This document shows, in pieces, positions 9,259 to 57,708 of a DNA stretch of 64,000 nucleotides. Position numbers and translations under genes: made by a program. Every line of letters starts with the position of its first letter. The stretch's first letter is position 1. Source of the DNA: a virus; the IMG/VR virus record IMGVR_UViG_3300020471_000623, positions 1 to 64,000 of that record, one strand, 5' to 3'. The notes beneath the pieces are model-generated. The model had not been told where the DNA came from and made no database searches. It worked only from the letters and a program-made list of their open reading frames with translations.

Positions 9259-9610
9259 TTTTATACCTGTTCAAACTGTTAGTCGTATGATAGACTTTAC
9301 GCCTATAGGCAGAGAGAAAGTTATTGAAAGACTATCAGAAGAGAATAAAAAAGGTGTAAGATATAGTTTACTAGGTGGTGGGTGTGCAGGATTTAGTTAT
9401 GTATTTGACTATGCAGACGAACCACAAGAAGGAGATATAGAATTAGACTTTGAAGATTTTAAACTATGGGTCTGTCCTATATCAGAGAAATATTTAAAAG
9501 GAACAGTTATAGATTGGAAGAAACAAGGATTGAATCAACAGTTTATATACATGAATCCTAATGAAGCTAGCTCATGTGGTTGTGGAACATCTGCTAGTTT
9601 TGAATTATAG
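9245..9610 (+). CDS. iscA: IscA/HesB-type Fe-S carrier protein
   Basis: A-type carrier that receives or delivers Fe-S clusters. The three ligands are present: C47 in GGGCAGFSY, and C111 and C113 in the C-terminal SCGCG. Length 121 is typical. The ATG lies inside the end of iscU, so scaffold and carrier are translationally coupled. The first 15 residues are an extra polar extension compared with IscA, and ATG codons at 9245 and 9287 are both possible starts; I keep the first for its overlap with iscU. Confidence 0.92.
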   Translation: MTVNSFIPVQTVSRMIDFTPIGREKVIERLSEENKKGVRYSLLGGGCAGFSYVFDYADEPQEGDIELDFEDFKLWVCPISEKYLKGTVIDWKKQGLNQQFIYMNPNEASSCGCGTSASFEL

Positions 9611-14539: not shown

Positions 14540-15421
14540 ATGGGAAAGTTAAGATATTCAGAGGTATTTTATAGCGTCCAAGGCGAAGGCAGATTCGTAG
14601 GTGTTCCTAGTGTCTTCCTCAGAGTCTTTGGTTGTAATTTTGAATGCGCTGGCTTTGGACAAGAACGTGGTAAACTAATTGCTACAGATCAGATGCCTTA
14701 CTTTACAGACCCTAAAGCAGATAAGAATCATCCTGAGGCATATAAGAGTATTGAAGAATTGCCTGTTACTCCTATAGGTTGTGATAGTTCTGCTAGTTGG
14801 GCTATGAAATATAAACATTTACAATTAACTGAAACAATAGAACAAGTCCAACAAAGAATTATAGATTTACTTCCTAATGGTAAGTATGATGAAAGAGAAG
14901 ATATACATCTAGTTATTACAGGCGGAGAACCTTTATTAGGTTGGCAAAGAGTATGGCCTGAACTATTAGAACTAGGCAGAAGTATAGGATTGAAGAACGT
15001 TACATTTGAAACAAATGGAACACAGAATTTACAAGATCAATTTATAGAATATTTAAATGGAGATGGCAAAGATATACATGTTACATGGTCTACATCTCCT
15101 AAACTATCTATCTCAGGTGAGGAACAATTTGACGCACTTGTTCCTGAAGTATTGGTAGATATGAATAAGGTTACGAATAGTCATTTATATAATAAATTTG
15201 TCGTTAGGGATATAAATGACTTTGAAGAAGTAGATACTTTCGTGAACGCATACAAAGAGGCAGGTGTAAAATTAGATGCTGTCTATTGTATGCCTGAAGG
15301 TGCTACATTAGAACAACAAACACTAACGGCAAAAGGTGTTGCTGAGGCATGTATGAAAACAGGCTACAAATATAGCCCTAGGTTACATATAGATTTATTT
15401 GGTAATGCCTGGGGAACGTAA
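14540..15421 (+). CDS. queE: QueE, 7-carboxy-7-deazaguanine synthase
   Basis: Radical SAM enzyme converting 6-carboxytetrahydropterin to 7-carboxy-7-deazaguanine (CDG). The N terminus SEVFYSVQGEGRFVGVPSVF is the family signature. C32 and C36 (GCNFECAGF) plus C81 (PIGCDSSASW) are the likely cluster ligands: the third Cys sits after an insertion of about 44 residues, in place of the compact CxxxCxxC. GGEPLLGW at 128-135 binds SAM. At 293 residues it is longer than E. coli QueE (223). It works with FolE and QueD downstream. Confidence 0.9.
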   Translation: MGKLRYSEVFYSVQGEGRFVGVPSVFLRVFGCNFECAGFGQERGKLIATDQMPYFTDPKADKNHPEAYKSIEELPVTPIGCDSSASWAMKYKHLQLTETIEQVQQRIIDLLPNGKYDEREDIHLVITGGEPLLGWQRVWPELLELGRSIGLKNVTFETNGTQNLQDQFIEYLNGDGKDIHVTWSTSPKLSISGEEQFDALVPEVLVDMNKVTNSHLYNKFVVRDINDFEEVDTFVNAYKEAGVKLDAVYCMPEGATLEQQTLTAKGVAEACMKTGYKYSPRLHIDLFGNAWGT

Positions 15422-26273: not shown

Positions 26274-27839
26274 ATGAAAAATATTATGTATTGTATGGCT
26301 ACGGTCATACTTTTATTCAGCATGTCTGGAGCTTATGCCTCAGATATTGAAGAGGTAATTGTTGTAGGAGCTAAGGTTAGTTACAGCAACAGTGACCCAG
26401 AAAGTGAGTCAAATGCTATGGAAGCAATTGACCCAACAAGAGTATTCCAAGCAGGAGGCTTAGGTGGTTTTAATGCAGCTACAATAAATGGAACTGATAC
26501 TAAACACACAGCAGTCTATAGAAATGGAATACCTGTAAATGACGTAGGTAATGGTTGGTATGATTTTGGAACAGAACTATCTCAGAACCAAATATACAAA
26601 ATAATATCAGGACCTAATAGTGCTATATACGGCAGTTCTTCTATGGGAGGAACAATACTTATTGAAGACTCATTTGAAAGACAAGCATTCTTTCAAGCAG
26701 GTGAGGATACATATAAAGTTATGGCAGGTAATGAGTTCATTAATGTAGGACAATATAGAGGTTCTACAGGAAGTGCTAAATCAAATAACACAGAAAAAGA
26801 TTTCTTTGAAAACACAACGGCTAGAAGTAAATTTGTATTTGGAGATTGGTCTATCAATACCAATCATCAGAAATATGAAACAGATTATGACGGTTGTTGG
26901 AATGCTAATTGGGAAGAAGTAAATGATTGTGTCAGTAAAGGAGAGAAACATGATGTGTCTATTAGAGGTGATTGGCTAACAGTTGGTTATTCTAGAAATG
27001 ATGCACAGTTCTATACAGAAGGAGTTCAAACTTGGTCAGCAGTAAGTGAAAGATATTTTGCTGATGCTAATAAAGAAGTAACTGAAGGTGTAGTAATAGG
27101 ATTACAAGGACATAGAGAGGAATACGGACCTAATTGGGACGAACACCTAGCAGCTTATTTAAATGTTGAACATGTAGATGACGACATGAATAAGATTGGT
27201 TTCTCATATAGATTTGAGGAGAAGGAAAGTATATTTAGATTAGGTGGTGAGTATGGATTATTTAGAATCTCAGCAGCTAATAGTATTCGTAAACCTAACC
27301 TATATGAAAGGTATGGAGATGGATTTGTAAGTGCTAATCCTTTTCTAAAACCTGAAATAGGTAAAGGTATTGAAATGGGATACGACCACTTCTCGGCATG
27401 GTTTTATAGATTCTCAGAAAGTATTGAGTATGACTTTGTAGGTCAACAATATATAAATGCTGGTGGTTATGAATCTAAAGGTGTTAAGTATGACAATTAT
27501 ATAATGTCAGACTATGGAAATTTTGGTGTGTTATTAGTATATCAAGTTACTGATAAAATTAGAATTCCTAAATACAAATCTAAACTATCATGGTTTGATG
27601 GTGACGATGAATTTGATTATGAACTATCTTGGATTGCACAAGTAGACAGAGGCAATGACTTTGATGGCTCTGCAATAGAAGATGTAAACACAATCAACCT
27701 AGATCTTGGCTGGAATTTAGGACCTAATTATAGGATATCACTAGCTATAAATGACATTCTCGATCGAGAATTTGAGGTTTTACCAGGATATGGAGCTGGC
27801 GGAAGAACAGTTTATCTTGGTTTGCGCCTAACTTATTGA
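26274..27839 (+). CDS. TonB-dependent outer-membrane receptor
   Basis: 521 residues. A signal peptide (MKNIMYCMATVILLFSMSGA, cut after residue 22) is followed by a TonB-box-like DIEEVIVVGA. The plug spans about 55-130, with VYRNGIPVNDV and IISGPNSAIYGSSSMGGT, the usual GP-S-x-YG-x-x-x-GG element. The rest alternates aromatic beta strands; the last strands (AINDILDREFEVLPGYGAG, then YLGLRLTY) fit the BtuB-like end with a terminal aromatic. It is shorter than most receptors (600-800) but no plug or barrel end is missing. Ligand unknown; neighbours suggest cobalamin. Confidence 0.85.
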   Translation: MKNIMYCMATVILLFSMSGAYASDIEEVIVVGAKVSYSNSDPESESNAMEAIDPTRVFQAGGLGGFNAATINGTDTKHTAVYRNGIPVNDVGNGWYDFGTELSQNQIYKIISGPNSAIYGSSSMGGTILIEDSFERQAFFQAGEDTYKVMAGNEFINVGQYRGSTGSAKSNNTEKDFFENTTARSKFVFGDWSINTNHQKYETDYDGCWNANWEEVNDCVSKGEKHDVSIRGDWLTVGYSRNDAQFYTEGVQTWSAVSERYFADANKEVTEGVVIGLQGHREEYGPNWDEHLAAYLNVEHVDDDMNKIGFSYRFEEKESIFRLGGEYGLFRISAANSIRKPNLYERYGDGFVSANPFLKPEIGKGIEMGYDHFSAWFYRFSESIEYDFVGQQYINAGGYESKGVKYDNYIMSDYGNFGVLLVYQVTDKIRIPKYKSKLSWFDGDDEFDYELSWIAQVDRGNDFDGSAIEDVNTINLDLGWNLGPNYRISLAINDILDREFEVLPGYGAGGRTVYLGLRLTY

Positions 27840-32725: not shown

Positions 32726-34279
32726 ATGAATCATGGAATGATATTAGGTTGTCTCCAGGCACATCCTGGTTGGCAAGGGCAGGGTAAAGACAATAATTGG
32801 ATAAGTCTAAAACGTTCTGCTGGTTCTCATAAAATTGCTAGTTTTATGAGGAAAGAAGGTTGGGATATTGAAGTCATAGATTATTGGTTAGCATTTACTG
32901 AGGAAGAGTTTCAAACATTAATTAGAGCTAGAGTAACAAGTGATACAAAATTTATAGGAGTATCTGTTACATTTGGTTTCAGAGGAGATACTCTAAAAAG
33001 AGCACAAGATAATCTTACATGGTTAAAAGAAAACTATCCAGATATCATGATCGTTGCAGGTTCTAAATCCATTAGTGATACAATGAACTTACCTTGTGAT
33101 TATTATGTAACAGGTTACGGAGAGTTTGGACTACAACATCTATTAAATGGAACAGCAAAGATAACAGATTTTCAAGGCAAGAAGGTTGTAAATTCAGATA
33201 AAGATCATCCATGTTTTCCTCAAAAAGATTTAGTAACAAGATACGAAGAAAGAGATTTTATACAACCAACGGATACTTTAACCTTAGAACTATCCAGAGG
33301 ATGCAAATTTAAATGTAAATTTTGTTCTTACAATGCTATAGGATTGAAAGGCGACATTGATAGAGATATGTCTACACTATATGCAGAGCTAAAAGAAAAT
33401 TATGAGAAGTGGGGTGTAACAGATTACCACGTAGCAGATGAAACAACAAACGACAACACAGAAAAATTAAGACGAGCTGCTGAGGAGATTAGAAAATTAC
33501 CTTTCACACCTAACATGACAGGATTTATTAGAGCAGATCTTTTAATATCCAGAGAACATGATAAAGAGTATTTGGCAGAGATGGGATATTGGGCACACTT
33601 CTATGGTATAGAAACTTTTGACCAAAAGGCAGGACAAGTAATTGGTAAAGGTATGAATAGGGACAAACAGAAACAAGGTTTGTTAGATCTCAGAGATTAC
33701 TTCTGGAAACAATGTGGTAGATATCGTAGCACAACATCTCTTATTGTAGGTTTACCTTACGAAACAAGACAGTCATTATTTGATGGTTTAGATTGGCATA
33801 AAGAGAACTTTCCAAAAGAAAACTTACAGATAAATATATTGTTCATAAATAAATTTGCAGAACATTTAGGAGATATGTTTTCTCAATCTGATTTTGATAT
33901 GACTTGGAAAGATGGAAAACACTTTCACGAAAGATTAATACAGGATGATGAGGAAGTAGAAGCAACACCAGAAGCATTTGTTGATGGCCTTAAACATTTA
34001 TGGTTTAACTATAAAAGACATTCTGCTTTACCCTGGTCTCATGATACATTTAATTGGTGGACAGCACATCTTGCAACAAGAGATATCTACATGTCTAATA
34101 AAAATTATATGAGAGATAGAGGCCCTATGAATTGGGACTTATTTAATTTTACAACTCCTGGAACATATGATTGGGATAGTGTATTAGAAATGTCTTATGA
34201 TGATTATGATGAAGAAAGATTGGAAAAAGATACAAAATTACATATCCAAAAATATAAAAATGCTAAGTTAAACGTATAA
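32726..34279 (+). CDS. Radical SAM enzyme with N-terminal B12-binding-like domain
   Basis: 517 residues. Residues 1-150 have the Rossmann-like pattern of cobalamin-binding domains in radical SAM proteins (strands with IEVIDYWLAF, KFIGVSVTFGFRG and IMIVAGSKS). The cluster motif CKFKCKFC is at about 193-200, followed by the barrel with HVADETTNDN and SLIVGLPYETRQS. No His loop for lower-axial cobalt binding is certain. With ferredoxin upstream and CobS/CobT nearby, a cobalamin-using radical SAM enzyme is likely; substrate unknown. Confidence 0.75.
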   Translation: MNHGMILGCLQAHPGWQGQGKDNNWISLKRSAGSHKIASFMRKEGWDIEVIDYWLAFTEEEFQTLIRARVTSDTKFIGVSVTFGFRGDTLKRAQDNLTWLKENYPDIMIVAGSKSISDTMNLPCDYYVTGYGEFGLQHLLNGTAKITDFQGKKVVNSDKDHPCFPQKDLVTRYEERDFIQPTDTLTLELSRGCKFKCKFCSYNAIGLKGDIDRDMSTLYAELKENYEKWGVTDYHVADETTNDNTEKLRRAAEEIRKLPFTPNMTGFIRADLLISREHDKEYLAEMGYWAHFYGIETFDQKAGQVIGKGMNRDKQKQGLLDLRDYFWKQCGRYRSTTSLIVGLPYETRQSLFDGLDWHKENFPKENLQINILFINKFAEHLGDMFSQSDFDMTWKDGKHFHERLIQDDEEVEATPEAFVDGLKHLWFNYKRHSALPWSHDTFNWWTAHLATRDIYMSNKNYMRDRGPMNWDLFNFTTPGTYDWDSVLEMSYDDYDEERLEKDTKLHIQKYKNAKLNV

Positions 34280-38280: not shown

Positions 38281-38703
38281 ATGGTTGATCAAGACAATTA
38301 CTTTAATATAGACTATCCAGGTTATTCACCCTTAGAAGTTTCATTAAAGGACCCAGAAGATTTCCTAAAAGTGAGGGAGACTCTATCACGAATAGGTGTT
38401 GCTTCTAAGAAGGAAAAGGTTCTTTATCAGTCTTGTCATATACTGCACAAAAAAGGTAGATACTTTATTACACATTTTAAAGAACTATTTGCATTAGACG
38501 GCAAGGAAGCTGACTTCCAAGACAATGATTTACAACGAAGAAATACAATAGCAAAACTACTATCCGATTGGGGATTAGTAGACATCATTTCTAAAGATGT
38601 TGATGATTATGCTCCTTTAAGTCAGATAAAAATAATATCATTTAAGGAGAAGGGTGAGTGGGAGCTAATCCCTAAATATAACATTGGGAAGAAAGTCAAA
38701 TAA
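38281..38703 (+). CDS. regA: Translational repressor RegA
   Basis: RNA-binding protein that blocks translation of early mRNAs near their starts. The match with T4 RegA is direct: EDFLKVRETLSRIGVASKKE, KVLYQSCHILHKKGRYFI, HFKELFALDG and ISFKEKGEWELIPKYNIGK. It has about 18 extra N-terminal residues. ATG 38281 is preferred over TTG 38275. It overlaps the radical SAM gene by 20 bp. Confidence 0.95.
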   Translation: MVDQDNYFNIDYPGYSPLEVSLKDPEDFLKVRETLSRIGVASKKEKVLYQSCHILHKKGRYFITHFKELFALDGKEADFQDNDLQRRNTIAKLLSDWGLVDIISKDVDDYAPLSQIKIISFKEKGEWELIPKYNIGKKVK

Positions 38704-40012
38704 CCAGGAATACTGGCTCAACAAGATAAAAACAGACTTGGACGCAATTGGTCCAGGATTCTGTATCTTAAAATGGCACTATCTTGAGTTATCACTTGCA
38801 GAGGGACTGAAACATTCTTGTTATCATTGTCCACAACACAAAATACCTTTAAAATCAGATTTACACAATACACCTACAACAAAAGAAGTAAGGCAACAAA
38901 TGCTGGATGGACTAAAACCAGCCGAGGACAATTATTGCTACGATATCGAGAAAACAGGCAACTATTCTGATAGGCAATATCTTGCCGTTCAGTTCATAAA
39001 AGAAGACCCTAACATTATCGCCAAGACAGCAGCTTACGAACCTGATGAACAAATATATCCTAAATATCTAACAGTCAGTTTTACAAATAGATGTCAAATG
39101 TCCTGTATATATTGTGGTGCAGGAAAAAGTTCTACATGGAAAAAAGAAATAGATGAACATGGACCTTATCCTCTAAATGTAAAAGATAATTATGACAAGT
39201 ATATGCCTAGAAATGATATAATGAAAGTAGAAGATAATCCTTATGTAGATAAATTTTGGAAATGGTTACCAGATGCTTATCCTCACTTACAAACAATTAG
39301 ACTTACAGGTGGTGAACCTTTATTAGATGAAAATACATTTAAGTTATTACAATATGTTAAGGATAATCCTAAAGAACTATCATTTGAAATAAGCACAAAT
39401 TTAATGGTTACAGATAGGCGAGTATCTAATTATATAAATTTAGTGAAAGGCTTACCAGGACAGAAATGTTATGTAAGCGTAGATACTTGGGGAGAACAAG
39501 CAGAATGGATTAGAACAGGACTAAAAATAGAACAATTTGAACATAACCTACACAGAGTATTAGGTAACGGTATAAAAGTAGGTATTATGTGCACCTTTAA
39601 TCTTTTATCTATTCCTAACTTTGAAGAGTGGGTATTTAAAATGGCAGAACTAAAACAACAATATCCTGGACTGCTTACAGTTGATGTTCCTCAAATGGTA
39701 GAGCCATTACACCTAACTACAAGAATTGCTGATAAAAAGTTAATAAATATGTTGGATAAGGCATATAAGTCTATGCTAACGTATTCGCATCTATTTGAAG
39801 ATTACGAAATATCTAAATTTAAAAGAACAATAGCATGGACAAAGGCAAACCTTATGAAAGGCGAAGAATTAGAGAGAAATAGAAAAGACTTTGTTAAATT
39901 TGCCAATGAAAAAGATAGGAGAAGAGGCACAAATTTTTTAGAAACTTTTCCTGAATTGAAAGAATTTTATAATGACACAAGCACAACAATACAAGCTACT
40001 TCATCCATATAA
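38684..40012 (+). CDS. Radical SAM protein, twitch type
   Basis: 442 residues from TTG 38684. Cluster motif CQMSCIYCG at about 137-145, SAM-binding TGGEPLL near 210 and a short barrel. An N-terminal CYHCPQH adds a second Cys pair. Such proteins occur in marine T4-like phages without known substrate. It overlaps the oxygenase gene by 41 bp, so the pair may modify one target. Confidence 0.75.
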   Translation: MGRKSNNQEYWLNKIKTDLDAIGPGFCILKWHYLELSLAEGLKHSCYHCPQHKIPLKSDLHNTPTTKEVRQQMLDGLKPAEDNYCYDIEKTGNYSDRQYLAVQFIKEDPNIIAKTAAYEPDEQIYPKYLTVSFTNRCQMSCIYCGAGKSSTWKKEIDEHGPYPLNVKDNYDKYMPRNDIMKVEDNPYVDKFWKWLPDAYPHLQTIRLTGGEPLLDENTFKLLQYVKDNPKELSFEISTNLMVTDRRVSNYINLVKGLPGQKCYVSVDTWGEQAEWIRTGLKIEQFEHNLHRVLGNGIKVGIMCTFNLLSIPNFEEWVFKMAELKQQYPGLLTVDVPQMVEPLHLTTRIADKKLINMLDKAYKSMLTYSHLFEDYEISKFKRTIAWTKANLMKGEELERNRKDFVKFANEKDRRRGTNFLETFPELKEFYNDTSTTIQATSSI

Positions 40013-54991: not shown

Positions 54992-56149
54992 ATGAGGTTT
55001 ACAGAATTTTTAACAGAACAATCCGAGGAAGATAAACTCAAACATTTAGAACATGTTGAGGACCACGTCATCCATTCAGGACATAAAGGTTTTGGACACG
55101 CATTTCATACATTAAATGACGTGCATAATAACCTACAAGGCAAAGGTGGCAAAGATACACAGGTAACAATGAAATATGATGGCAGTCCTGCCGTTGTATT
55201 TGGTAAGCATCCTGAAAATGGTAAGTTCTTTGTAGCATCTAAGTCAGCATTCAATAAAAATCCTAAGATAAATCATACACACGAAGATATACAAAAGAAT
55301 CACGGACATGCTCCTGGACTTGTTCAGAAGTTAAGTGCAGCATTAGATCACGCACATAAAATAGAGCCTGATGGAATCTATCAGGCGGACATAATGCACG
55401 CAGGAGATGTTAAGAAGAAAGGCAACAGAGTAGAATTTACTCCTAACACTATTACATATCACGCACCACATGATTCAGATCATGGTAAAGCAGCAGCTAA
55501 TTCTAAACTAGGATTAGCAGTTCATACAAAGTATGAAGGCAAAAATATAGCAGATTTAAAGGCTGTTCATGGTGCAGTAGATATGAAAAACTTTAAACAA
55601 CATAAAGACGTCCATATGATGGACGCTAATCACGATACAAGCACTCATAGATACTCTATGGAAGACAGACAAAAGGTGCAACACCACTTGGACCAAGCAG
55701 TGGCACACTTCAAAAATACACCAAGAGAGCACCACGATACTGTGGCAAAACACGCAGTAGCAAAGAAAACATACATCAATCATACTGTAAGAACAGGAGA
55801 ACCTTATAGTCATGAAGGATTTGTAAAACATGTAACTGCTAGCCACCAAAAGAAAGTAGATAAAGTAAAAACAGACGCAGCTAAGGCTAGGCATCAAACT
55901 ACAATGGATAACACATTAGATCATATAAATAAGAACAAAGAACACTTTGAAGGGCCTATGAACATGCACAAACACCTTCAAGCAGCAAAGAATATTATTA
56001 CTAATACTTTGTCGCAGAAGTCACAGTATGGACATGAGATAGCAGGCTCTCCTAGTAAACCAGAAGGTTTTGTTGCCATACGAAATGGCAGACCTTCTAA
56101 ATTTGTAGATAGAAAAGAGTTTAGTGCAGCTAACTTTAATAAAGGATAA
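54992..56149 (+). CDS. Nucleotidyltransferase/RNA-ligase-like protein (DUF6267 type)
   Basis: 385 residues, unusually His- and Lys-rich. VTMKYDGSPAVVFGKHPENGKFF fits ligase motif I (KxDG, Lys nucleotidylated) and KSAFNKNPK follows; GIYQADIMH is like motif III/IV. The middle (150-300) has many His, a feature of this phage family. RNA or DNA ligation or AMP transfer is inferred. No ribosome site is seen before ATG 54992, in line with leaderless start. Confidence 0.72.
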   Translation: MRFTEFLTEQSEEDKLKHLEHVEDHVIHSGHKGFGHAFHTLNDVHNNLQGKGGKDTQVTMKYDGSPAVVFGKHPENGKFFVASKSAFNKNPKINHTHEDIQKNHGHAPGLVQKLSAALDHAHKIEPDGIYQADIMHAGDVKKKGNRVEFTPNTITYHAPHDSDHGKAAANSKLGLAVHTKYEGKNIADLKAVHGAVDMKNFKQHKDVHMMDANHDTSTHRYSMEDRQKVQHHLDQAVAHFKNTPREHHDTVAKHAVAKKTYINHTVRTGEPYSHEGFVKHVTASHQKKVDKVKTDAAKARHQTTMDNTLDHINKNKEHFEGPMNMHKHLQAAKNIITNTLSQKSQYGHEIAGSPSKPEGFVAIRNGRPSKFVDRKEFSAANFNKG

Positions 56150-56784
56150 TGGATATTAATATAGAAGTAACAGAAAATGCAATAGAGTATTTGAAGGGAC
56201 TATTGGAAACAGTAGACATTCAAGACCCTAAAGGTCCTAAGACTAATATTAAAGTTTTTGTAGAAAACGGTGGGACTCCACATGCAGAAACAATGCTAAC
56301 GTATTGTAAAGAGTCAGAGAAAGGCGATTCAGAGGTAATAAACTTTGAACCTTTTGATCTGTATGTAGATAAAAACAGTATAAAATTTTTAGAAGACGCT
56401 AAAGTAGACCATAACAAGGATACTTTTGGAGGACAATTAACTATAAAGGCACCTAATTCTAAGGTATCTAAATTAGATGAAAATTCTACTTTAGAAGAGA
56501 AAGTTAATTATTATCTGTTCAATGATGTAGCTCCTATGTTAGCACAACATGGTGGTAATGTAAGACTACATAAAATTACAGAAGATAATATGGCAGTATT
56601 AGAATTTGGTGGGGGTTGTCAAGGGTGTAGTGCAGTAGATATGACACTTACTCATGGCATAGAACAAATAATTTTACAGAACGTTCCTGAGATAAAAGGC
56701 ATAATGGATATGACAGATCATAGTCTAGCACAGAATGCTTATTATAAGGACGAATCTGAAGCACAAGCATACGGAGGCTTTTAA
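56149..56784 (+). CDS. nfuA: NfuA-type Fe-S carrier
   Basis: 211 residues. The N-terminal half is an A-type-like domain without its Cys triad; the C-terminal NifU domain has APMLAQHGGNVRL and CQGCSAVDMTL (C157, C160). E. coli NfuA (191) has the same layout. It delivers [4Fe-4S] clusters and may repair stressed proteins. With IscU and IscA it gives the phage a near-complete carrier set. Overlaps both neighbours by one base. Confidence 0.93.
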   Translation: MDINIEVTENAIEYLKGLLETVDIQDPKGPKTNIKVFVENGGTPHAETMLTYCKESEKGDSEVINFEPFDLYVDKNSIKFLEDAKVDHNKDTFGGQLTIKAPNSKVSKLDENSTLEEKVNYYLFNDVAPMLAQHGGNVRLHKITEDNMAVLEFGGGCQGCSAVDMTLTHGIEQIILQNVPEIKGIMDMTDHSLAQNAYYKDESEAQAYGGF

Positions 56785-56837
56785 TGCAAAAGAAATGCAA
56801 ATGTTGTGAATGCTGTTCTTGCACTTGTTGCGGGTAA
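56784..56837 (+). CDS. 17-residue cysteine-rich microprotein
   Basis: MQKKCKCCECCSCTCCG: 8 Cys of 17 residues in a CxCCxCCxCxCC pattern, like a small metallothionein. ATG overlaps the nfuA stop (TAATG) and GGAGG lies 6 bp upstream (56773-56777), the best ribosome site around; the stop is 4 bp before the next ATG. Its codons are intact and no frame of a neighbour explains it. Zn, Cu or Fe binding is inferred. Confidence 0.7.
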   Translation: MQKKCKCCECCSCTCCG

Positions 56838-56841
56838 TTAA

Positions 56842-57708
56842 ATGGCAGACGAACAAGAAAAACATATAGTATTTTCATATGGACGTATGAATCCGCCTAC
56901 TGCTGGACATAGCAAAGTCGTAGATAAAGTTAAGTCACATGCAGAAAAAATAGGTGCTAATCATGCTGTCATTGTTAGTCATTCACAAAACAGTAAAACA
57001 GACCCTTTACATCATGAGCACAAAAAAGAATATCTAAGACATATTCATCCAGATGTAAACTTTGAACATTCTACAAAAGAACACCCACACTTCTTAGCAC
57101 AACTTAAAAAGTTTAATCAAGAAGGACATTCACACGCAACTATGGTTGTAGGTAGTGATAGAGTAAAACAATTCAAGTCGTTGGCACATAAATACAACGG
57201 TAAAGAGTATAATTATAAAAAGATAAACATACTATCAGCAGGACACAGAGACCCAGATGCTGAGGGTGTTGCAGGTATAAGTGGAACAAAGATGCGTAAT
57301 CATGCTAGTGGTAATGATTACAAATCATTTAAGGCAGGACTACATGCCAATCATAGTGATGAACATGCCAGAAAACTATTTAAAGCAACACGTCAAGGTA
57401 TGAATCTACAGAAAGAAGAGGTAGGCATGAAAGACTTTAAAACATTCCTTGCAGAAGATATGTCAGGTATGACTGTCGGAGGCGGACATAAAAGAAGTGT
57501 CAAGCAAGGAGCTGGACTTACTAAGAAAGGTGTTGCTAAATATAGGCGACAAAATCCTGGTAGTAAATTACAAACAGCAGTTACCACACCACCAAGTAAA
57601 CTAAAACCTGGCAGTAAAGCTGCCAAAAGACGTAAATCGTTTTGCGCTAGAAGTAGAGGATGGACAGGTGAAAGAGGTAAAGCAGCAAGACGGAGGTGGA
57701 ATTGTTAA
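56842..57708 (+). CDS. Nucleotidyltransferase fused to a basic DUF6321-like domain
   Basis: 288 residues. FSYGRMNPPTAGHSKVV is the HxGH-type motif and GISGTKMRNHA the ISGTxxR motif of NMN/cytidylyltransferases. The last 95 residues (from FKTFLAEDMSGMTVGGG) are Lys/Arg-rich with SFCARSRGW and end RWNC, as in the DUF6321 domain known from phages. It may be a nucleotide-transfer enzyme that binds nucleic acid. Confidence 0.78.
   Translation: MADEQEKHIVFSYGRMNPPTAGHSKVVDKVKSHAEKIGANHAVIVSHSQNSKTDPLHHEHKKEYLRHIHPDVNFEHSTKEHPHFLAQLKKFNQEGHSHATMVVGSDRVKQFKSLAHKYNGKEYNYKKINILSAGHRDPDAEGVAGISGTKMRNHASGNDYKSFKAGLHANHSDEHARKLFKATRQGMNLQKEEVGMKDFKTFLAEDMSGMTVGGGHKRSVKQGAGLTKKGVAKYRRQNPGSKLQTAVTTPPSKLKPGSKAAKRRKSFCARSRGWTGERGKAARRRWNC

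Follow-up and report, generated by a model that had tools for sequence, protein, structure and literature searches.

A family of 13- to 24-residue cysteine-array microproteins, probably metal-binding, encoded by viruses and SAR86 bacteria

Viruses and bacteria of the SAR86 order encode a so far undescribed family of microproteins of 13-24 residues, which probably bind metal and whose very short genes make them easy to overlook. The family falls into two classes, types I and II, that have in common only a dense CxC-type cysteine array. We consider it slightly better than an even bet (probability about 0.55) that both serve as soft-metal buffers, thiolate peptides of a metallothionein-like kind. 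The first member was recognized in the window, a 64,000-nucleotide stretch of viral DNA (positions 1 to 64,000 of IMG/VR record IMGVR_UViG_3300020471_000623).

The window's type I gene occupies positions 56784-56837 on the plus strand and is defined both by its sequence and by its relatives. Its product, MQKKCKCCECCSCTCCG, carries eight cysteines among 17 residues, and the translation bears out the CxCCxCCxCxCC spacing that a sequence-only reading of this DNA had described, as do the letters themselves for the start signals claimed there. A GGAGG Shine-Dalgarno site (56773-56777, plus strand) lies six bases 5' of the ATG (56784-56786), whose A is also the last base of the TAA of the preceding gene, giving the TAATG overlap. 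That gene (56149-56784, plus strand) encodes an NfuA-like Fe-S scaffold or carrier protein with Pfam Fe-S_biosyn and NifU domains; it gives a full-length match to the NCBIfam NfuA model TIGR03341 (E 1.7e-71), with 240 bits where the equivalog cut-off is 269, and has the NfuA arrangement of a degenerate A-type domain followed by a NifU domain with a CxxC motif, here CQGC. Four bases past the stop of the microgene begins a cytidylyltransferase-like gene with a C-terminal DUF6321 (56842-57708, plus strand), the most constant neighbour of the peptide within the lineage of the window phage, whose own ATG at 56842 is without a clear Shine-Dalgarno site. Upstream of nfuA is a DUF6267 gene (54992-56149, plus strand), which adjoins the peptide in those relatives that lack nfuA at this site. 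At the level of sequence the micro-ORF is confirmed as a real gene, and we infer that it is translated.

To find relatives, a viral collection was searched for C[KN]CC[KE]CCxCxCC with a degenerate DNA pattern, which matched 52 times, and not once when reversed. Every match lies in a micro-ORF whose ATG precedes the motif by no more than a few codons and whose stop follows it immediately, save for one that is cut by the end of its contig. A wider pattern added 13 viral micro-ORFs. Complete type I ORFs of 13-20 residues (C-x-CC-x-CC-x-C-x-CC) are found in about 67 viral contigs. Because an unrestricted pattern also matched many TGC/CTG-repeat frames, x1 was limited to K, N, E or D and reversed patterns served as controls. 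The Cys pattern and the start, on whose conservation in relatives the sequence-only reading had staked its claim, do recur there; for the cysteines this is in part ascertained, because the search patterns fixed their positions (the narrow one also x1 and x2), while the evidence from starts, stops and Shine-Dalgarno sites is free of this ascertainment. A Shine-Dalgarno match is present in 41 of the 47 distinct viral upstream regions, against 10% at control ATGs. Among loci fetched solely through the nfuA or cytidylyltransferase protein, and hence independently of any pattern, type I was present in L003, L127, L128, L136 and L152 and type II in L133-L135, and others carry neither. With blastn, a search limited by the low-complexity filter of BLAST, the microgene found nothing better than weak partial matches among 50,697 phage records, and no type I match turned up anywhere in the complete records of Pelagibacter phage HTVC008M and Synechococcus phage S-SM1.

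Several features of these sequences suggest that type I is under selection at the protein level. The peptides are diverse (40 distinct viral and 26 distinct bacterial sequences), nearly every Cys position shows both TGT and TGC, and the spacers are polar, with a hydrophobic residue, C, P or G at x2-x4 in just 1 of 138 viral and 0 of 99 bacterial cases. In L003/L098, where nfuA is 73% identical, the microgene has a start displaced a few bases downstream and a different frame with respect to nfuA, and the Cys codons are kept.

The link to nfuA holds for one lineage and not for the family. The same peptide does occur 3' of nfuA in related phages, where the sequence-only reading had proposed to look for it: it is next to nfuA in the window, L001/L212, L098, L220, L231, L237 and L244, and the order nfuA-peptide-cytidylyltransferase is common to L001/L212 and L098. 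The proposed coupling thus stands for the window phage and its lineage; for the family it does not, since L209, L216, L227, L230, L248 and L249 have no nfuA there, and the peptide is flanked by the DUF6267 gene and the cytidylyltransferase. In L004/L223 the peptide precedes nfuA, and the site downstream of nfuA in L004 is without it, the nfuA stop falling directly on the next start. With stops and starts a few bases apart, the peptide may also aid translation of the gene that follows it, as the sequence-only reading had proposed. Most of the remaining phage copies have other neighbours, and a universal coupling to nfuA was rejected on the ground that neighbours differ among the phage loci. Counted over the family, a gene for NfuA, IscU or IscA lies within 1.5 kb of the peptide at 11 of 67 type I loci (171 kb of near sequence), and the remaining 436 kb of these loci hold five Fe-S gene matches.

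Type II was retrieved from viral contigs with a pattern for MCKCxxCxCxxCxC, which matched 66 contigs, 64 of them with micro-ORFs (loci L408-L473), and once in reversed order. In three contigs (L133-L135, also L408/L425/L430) the type II peptide MCKCESCKCDPCTCSN replaces type I in front of the cytidylyltransferase. An IscU gene lies upstream within 1.5 kb at 29 of the 64 type II loci and is directly adjacent at 22, where its stop usually falls inside the start of the microgene; beyond 1.5 kb, the same loci hold no IscU, IscA or NfuA homologue. The neighbouring protein matches PF01592 (NifU_N; E 5.7e-50) and has the three cluster cysteines, in PECGD, FGCGS and IHCSV. Many type II loci go on to encode a PF11123-family DNA-packaging protein, so that these phages differ in kind from the T4-like window phage. 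In phage C48C1, with an IscU 73% identical to the query, the gene that directly follows IscU is an annotated one of 774 bases and no microgene. The occurrence of iscU and erpA in HMO-2011-type marine viral genomes has already been reported, and microproteins go unmentioned in the available portion of that report (PMC9038755). A longer protein with a CxC chain was also seen: on the reverse strand of L415 (1572-2243, numbered on that strand) a 223-residue phage protein begins with such a chain at its N-terminus (MCKCEKCTCVDCKCTSDKCACVGC) and has no Pfam match.

The rest of the window phage genome offers some further observations. Two radical SAM proteins (PF04055) are encoded on the plus strand at 32726-34279 and 38684-40012, the first also weakly resembling B12-binding proteins, and a QueE-like protein with a weak 4Fe-4S single-cluster match at 14540-15421 (plus strand), so that one genome holds several Fe-S-dependent enzymes. 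A second Fe-S_biosyn (IscA-like) domain is encoded far from nfuA, at 9350-9586 on the same strand. The gene at 26274-27839 (plus strand) would not be expected in a phage: its 521-residue product, a host-type outer-membrane receptor, opens with a signal-peptide-like stretch and carries the plug domain of TonB-dependent receptors (PF07715). As a clue to the host, this product gave only weak plug-domain matches, to SAR86 and other gammaproteobacteria.

Among bacteria, the narrow type I pattern matched two SAR86 and two Porticoccaceae genomes. With free spacers, it matched 73 of 203 genomes of the SAR86 order (about 70 when low-complexity repeats are left out) and, reversed, 0 of 203; in an evenly drawn set of 369 gammaproteobacteria only two genomes, both of the SAR86 order, matched. 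The SAR86 copies examined are MCDCCDCCECSCCSK-like ORFs. A Shine-Dalgarno site was found in just 1 of 34 bacterial upstream regions. Instead, 33 of 43 SAR86 upstream stretches have a TATAAT-like box (at least five of six matches) at -12 to -7, ending six bases 5' of the ATG, and most of the others reflect alternative upstream ATGs or one-base shifts. The box is seen at loci L263-L292 and L312-L331. A box so close to the ATG predicts that the SAR86 microgene is transcribed from a conserved promoter into a leaderless mRNA.

The SAR86 gene is often found among genes for handling heavy metals. MerC (PF03203) lies within 6 kb of the peptide in 32 of the 57 SAR86 copies with a listed MerC coordinate, on the same strand in all 32, counts that are not independent because the genomes are related; the roughly 25 testable copies that are not near MerC count against a metal reading. 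In L255 the peptide is 73 bp from MerC and stands between it and a divergent set of genes for an HMA protein, a MerT-like protein and a CsoR-type metal repressor; a copper protein of the plastocyanin family is encoded nearby. No metal neighbours were seen for the Porticoccaceae copies. Close to the peptide in L256 (3699-4823), L323 and related SAR86 loci is a gene for a conserved His/Met-rich exported protein, possibly a metal protein, of which the L256 member has no Pfam match.

Two unlike thiol arrays interchange at one site and turn up repeatedly next to Fe-S scaffold genes of phages and, for type I, near metal genes of SAR86. Soft-metal binding is the simplest function that they could have in common. 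A free-standing microprotein of this kind would fold only by wrapping its eight thiolates around soft metal ions (Zn2+, Cu+, Cd2+ or Hg2+), and could be regarded as a metallothionein pared to a single metal-thiolate cluster. In SAR86 it would be made from a leaderless gene, often within a heavy-metal neighbourhood. In phages its translation would begin at a start that is coupled or driven by a Shine-Dalgarno site, and in several lineages its gene lies beside Fe-S scaffold genes that the phage itself carries (NfuA, IscU, IscA). There the peptide could keep free Zn or Cu off the scaffold cysteines so that Fe-S assembly continues during infection; the several radical SAM genes of the window phage would need such clusters. 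In E. coli, Fe-S assembly is blocked when Zn occupies the cluster cysteines of IscU and IscA, and Cu acts likewise at IscA (PMC6495748). Metal binding, the identity of the metal and the protection of Fe-S assembly are all inferred, and the metal handling that had been suggested from the nfuA link fits both the metal neighbours in SAR86 and the recurrent Fe-S neighbours in phages. Against a role as a buffer, a 17-mer may be rapidly degraded or may buffer little, and against Fe-S protection, most type I phage copies are without an adjacent Fe-S gene. A broader proposal, which we put forward tentatively and would not yet back at even odds, is that the two classes, ribosomally made and convergent, are at 13-24 residues the smallest metal-thiolate proteins known to be genetically encoded, that phages pair them with IscU, NfuA and IscA in a viral module for Fe-S assembly or protection, and that SAR86 expresses one class leaderless for metal homeostasis.

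The same gene neighbourhoods could also reflect a direct role in Fe-S biogenesis, in which the peptide accepts, holds or delivers iron, sulphide or persulphide, or a nascent cluster, to or from NfuA or IscU. The frequent placement of type II directly 3' of IscU (29 of 64 within 1.5 kb, 22 of them adjacent), that of type I after NfuA at seven loci, the radical SAM enzymes of the window phage and the CxxCxxC triple of type I, which could hold a cluster, are all consistent with such a role. Type II, however, is interchangeable with type I at one locus and has no such triple, many phage copies have no Fe-S neighbour, and the SAR86 copies lie near MerC, with no Fe-S gene noticed among the clustered neighbours there; we regard a direct Fe-S role as unlikely, if well worth keeping in mind. 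The poly-Cys content of these very short ORFs, the predicted leaderless mRNA in SAR86 and the frequent proximity of the stop to the next start would also suit a leader peptide, at whose Cys codons ribosomes stall when charged tRNA-Cys is scarce and so alter expression of the next gene, and leaderless poly-cysteine attenuator ORFs have been reported in mycobacteria. Stalling, however, needs neither the Cys spacing nor the polar spacers that are kept across phages and bacteria, and phage copies have their own Shine-Dalgarno sites. The idea is weakened further because the downstream genes vary by locus, with no constant target in cysteine or sulphur metabolism, and because terminators are absent after the SAR86 copies, a terminator-like element following 1 of 38 as against 13 of 190 controls; we therefore think a leader peptide improbable.

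It is also conceivable that the microgene merely couples translation of its neighbours, its product being incidental. The TAATG overlap and the 4-base gap in the window fit this, as do the short gaps in relatives, where the type I stop is often a few bases from the next start. Coupling would not require a fixed Cys array, however, and the peptide shifts between loci with different neighbours and also exists as a bacterial gene predicted to be leaderless, which leaves little credence for coupling as its only role. That the ORFs arise by chance or from low-complexity sequence might be suspected from their very short length and from the repeats that the unrestricted pattern also matches; the reversed controls (0, 0 and 1, against 52, 73 and 66), together with the start signals and the spacer statistics, rule this out. 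Metal buffering by a metallothionein-like peptide is thus the reading that we prefer, and the claim is directly testable because a peptide of 13-17 residues is cheap to synthesize.

If true, this reading would place a metalloprotein family near the lower limit of size, readily missed by gene callers and present both across viruses and in a group of uncultured marine bacteria that is among the most abundant, and it would point to a viral programme for supplying or protecting Fe-S clusters. Neither the peptide nor any phage metallothionein was described in the literature that we searched; catalogues of small ORFs, such as GMSC with its lower limit of 30 bases (PMC11364881), may contain these sequences unannotated. 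Members of at least 20 residues matched no Pfam, PHROG, NCBIfam or metallothionein model, in a scan that has little power at that length and does not extend to shorter members.

Among known systems, the HMO-2011-type phage genomes with iscU and erpA, as far as the available part of their description goes (PMC9038755), are alike in having an IscU-family gene, such as lies directly upstream of the type II microgenes found here. The mycobacterial attenuators are similarly short, poly-Cys, leaderless as is predicted for the SAR86 copies, and near a downstream gene; the microproteins differ from them in their fixed Cys spacing, conserved polar spacers and phage Shine-Dalgarno sites, and in having neither a common downstream gene nor a terminator. 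Ferredoxin-type CxxCxxC sites and Fe-S peptide maquettes share the CxxCxxC triple with type I, but the microproteins hold far more cysteines than a cluster needs, and type II is without the triple. Named metallothioneins are roughly 25-60 residues long or more, and the microproteins, which we class as metallothionein-like by their presumed mode of action and not as proven members, differ from them in having 13-24 residues, in occurring also in phages and in that their metal binding is putative. They nevertheless form very Cys-rich small proteins with a CxC/CC arrangement, and the bacterial metallothioneins of the SmtA/BmtA type, mycobacterial MymT and the Neurospora Cu-metallothionein likewise combine extreme Cys content and CxC/CC order with the lack of a hydrophobic core. 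Some SAR86 copies may share the heavy-metal gene neighbourhood of metallothioneins, and type II resembles a run of three CxC units.
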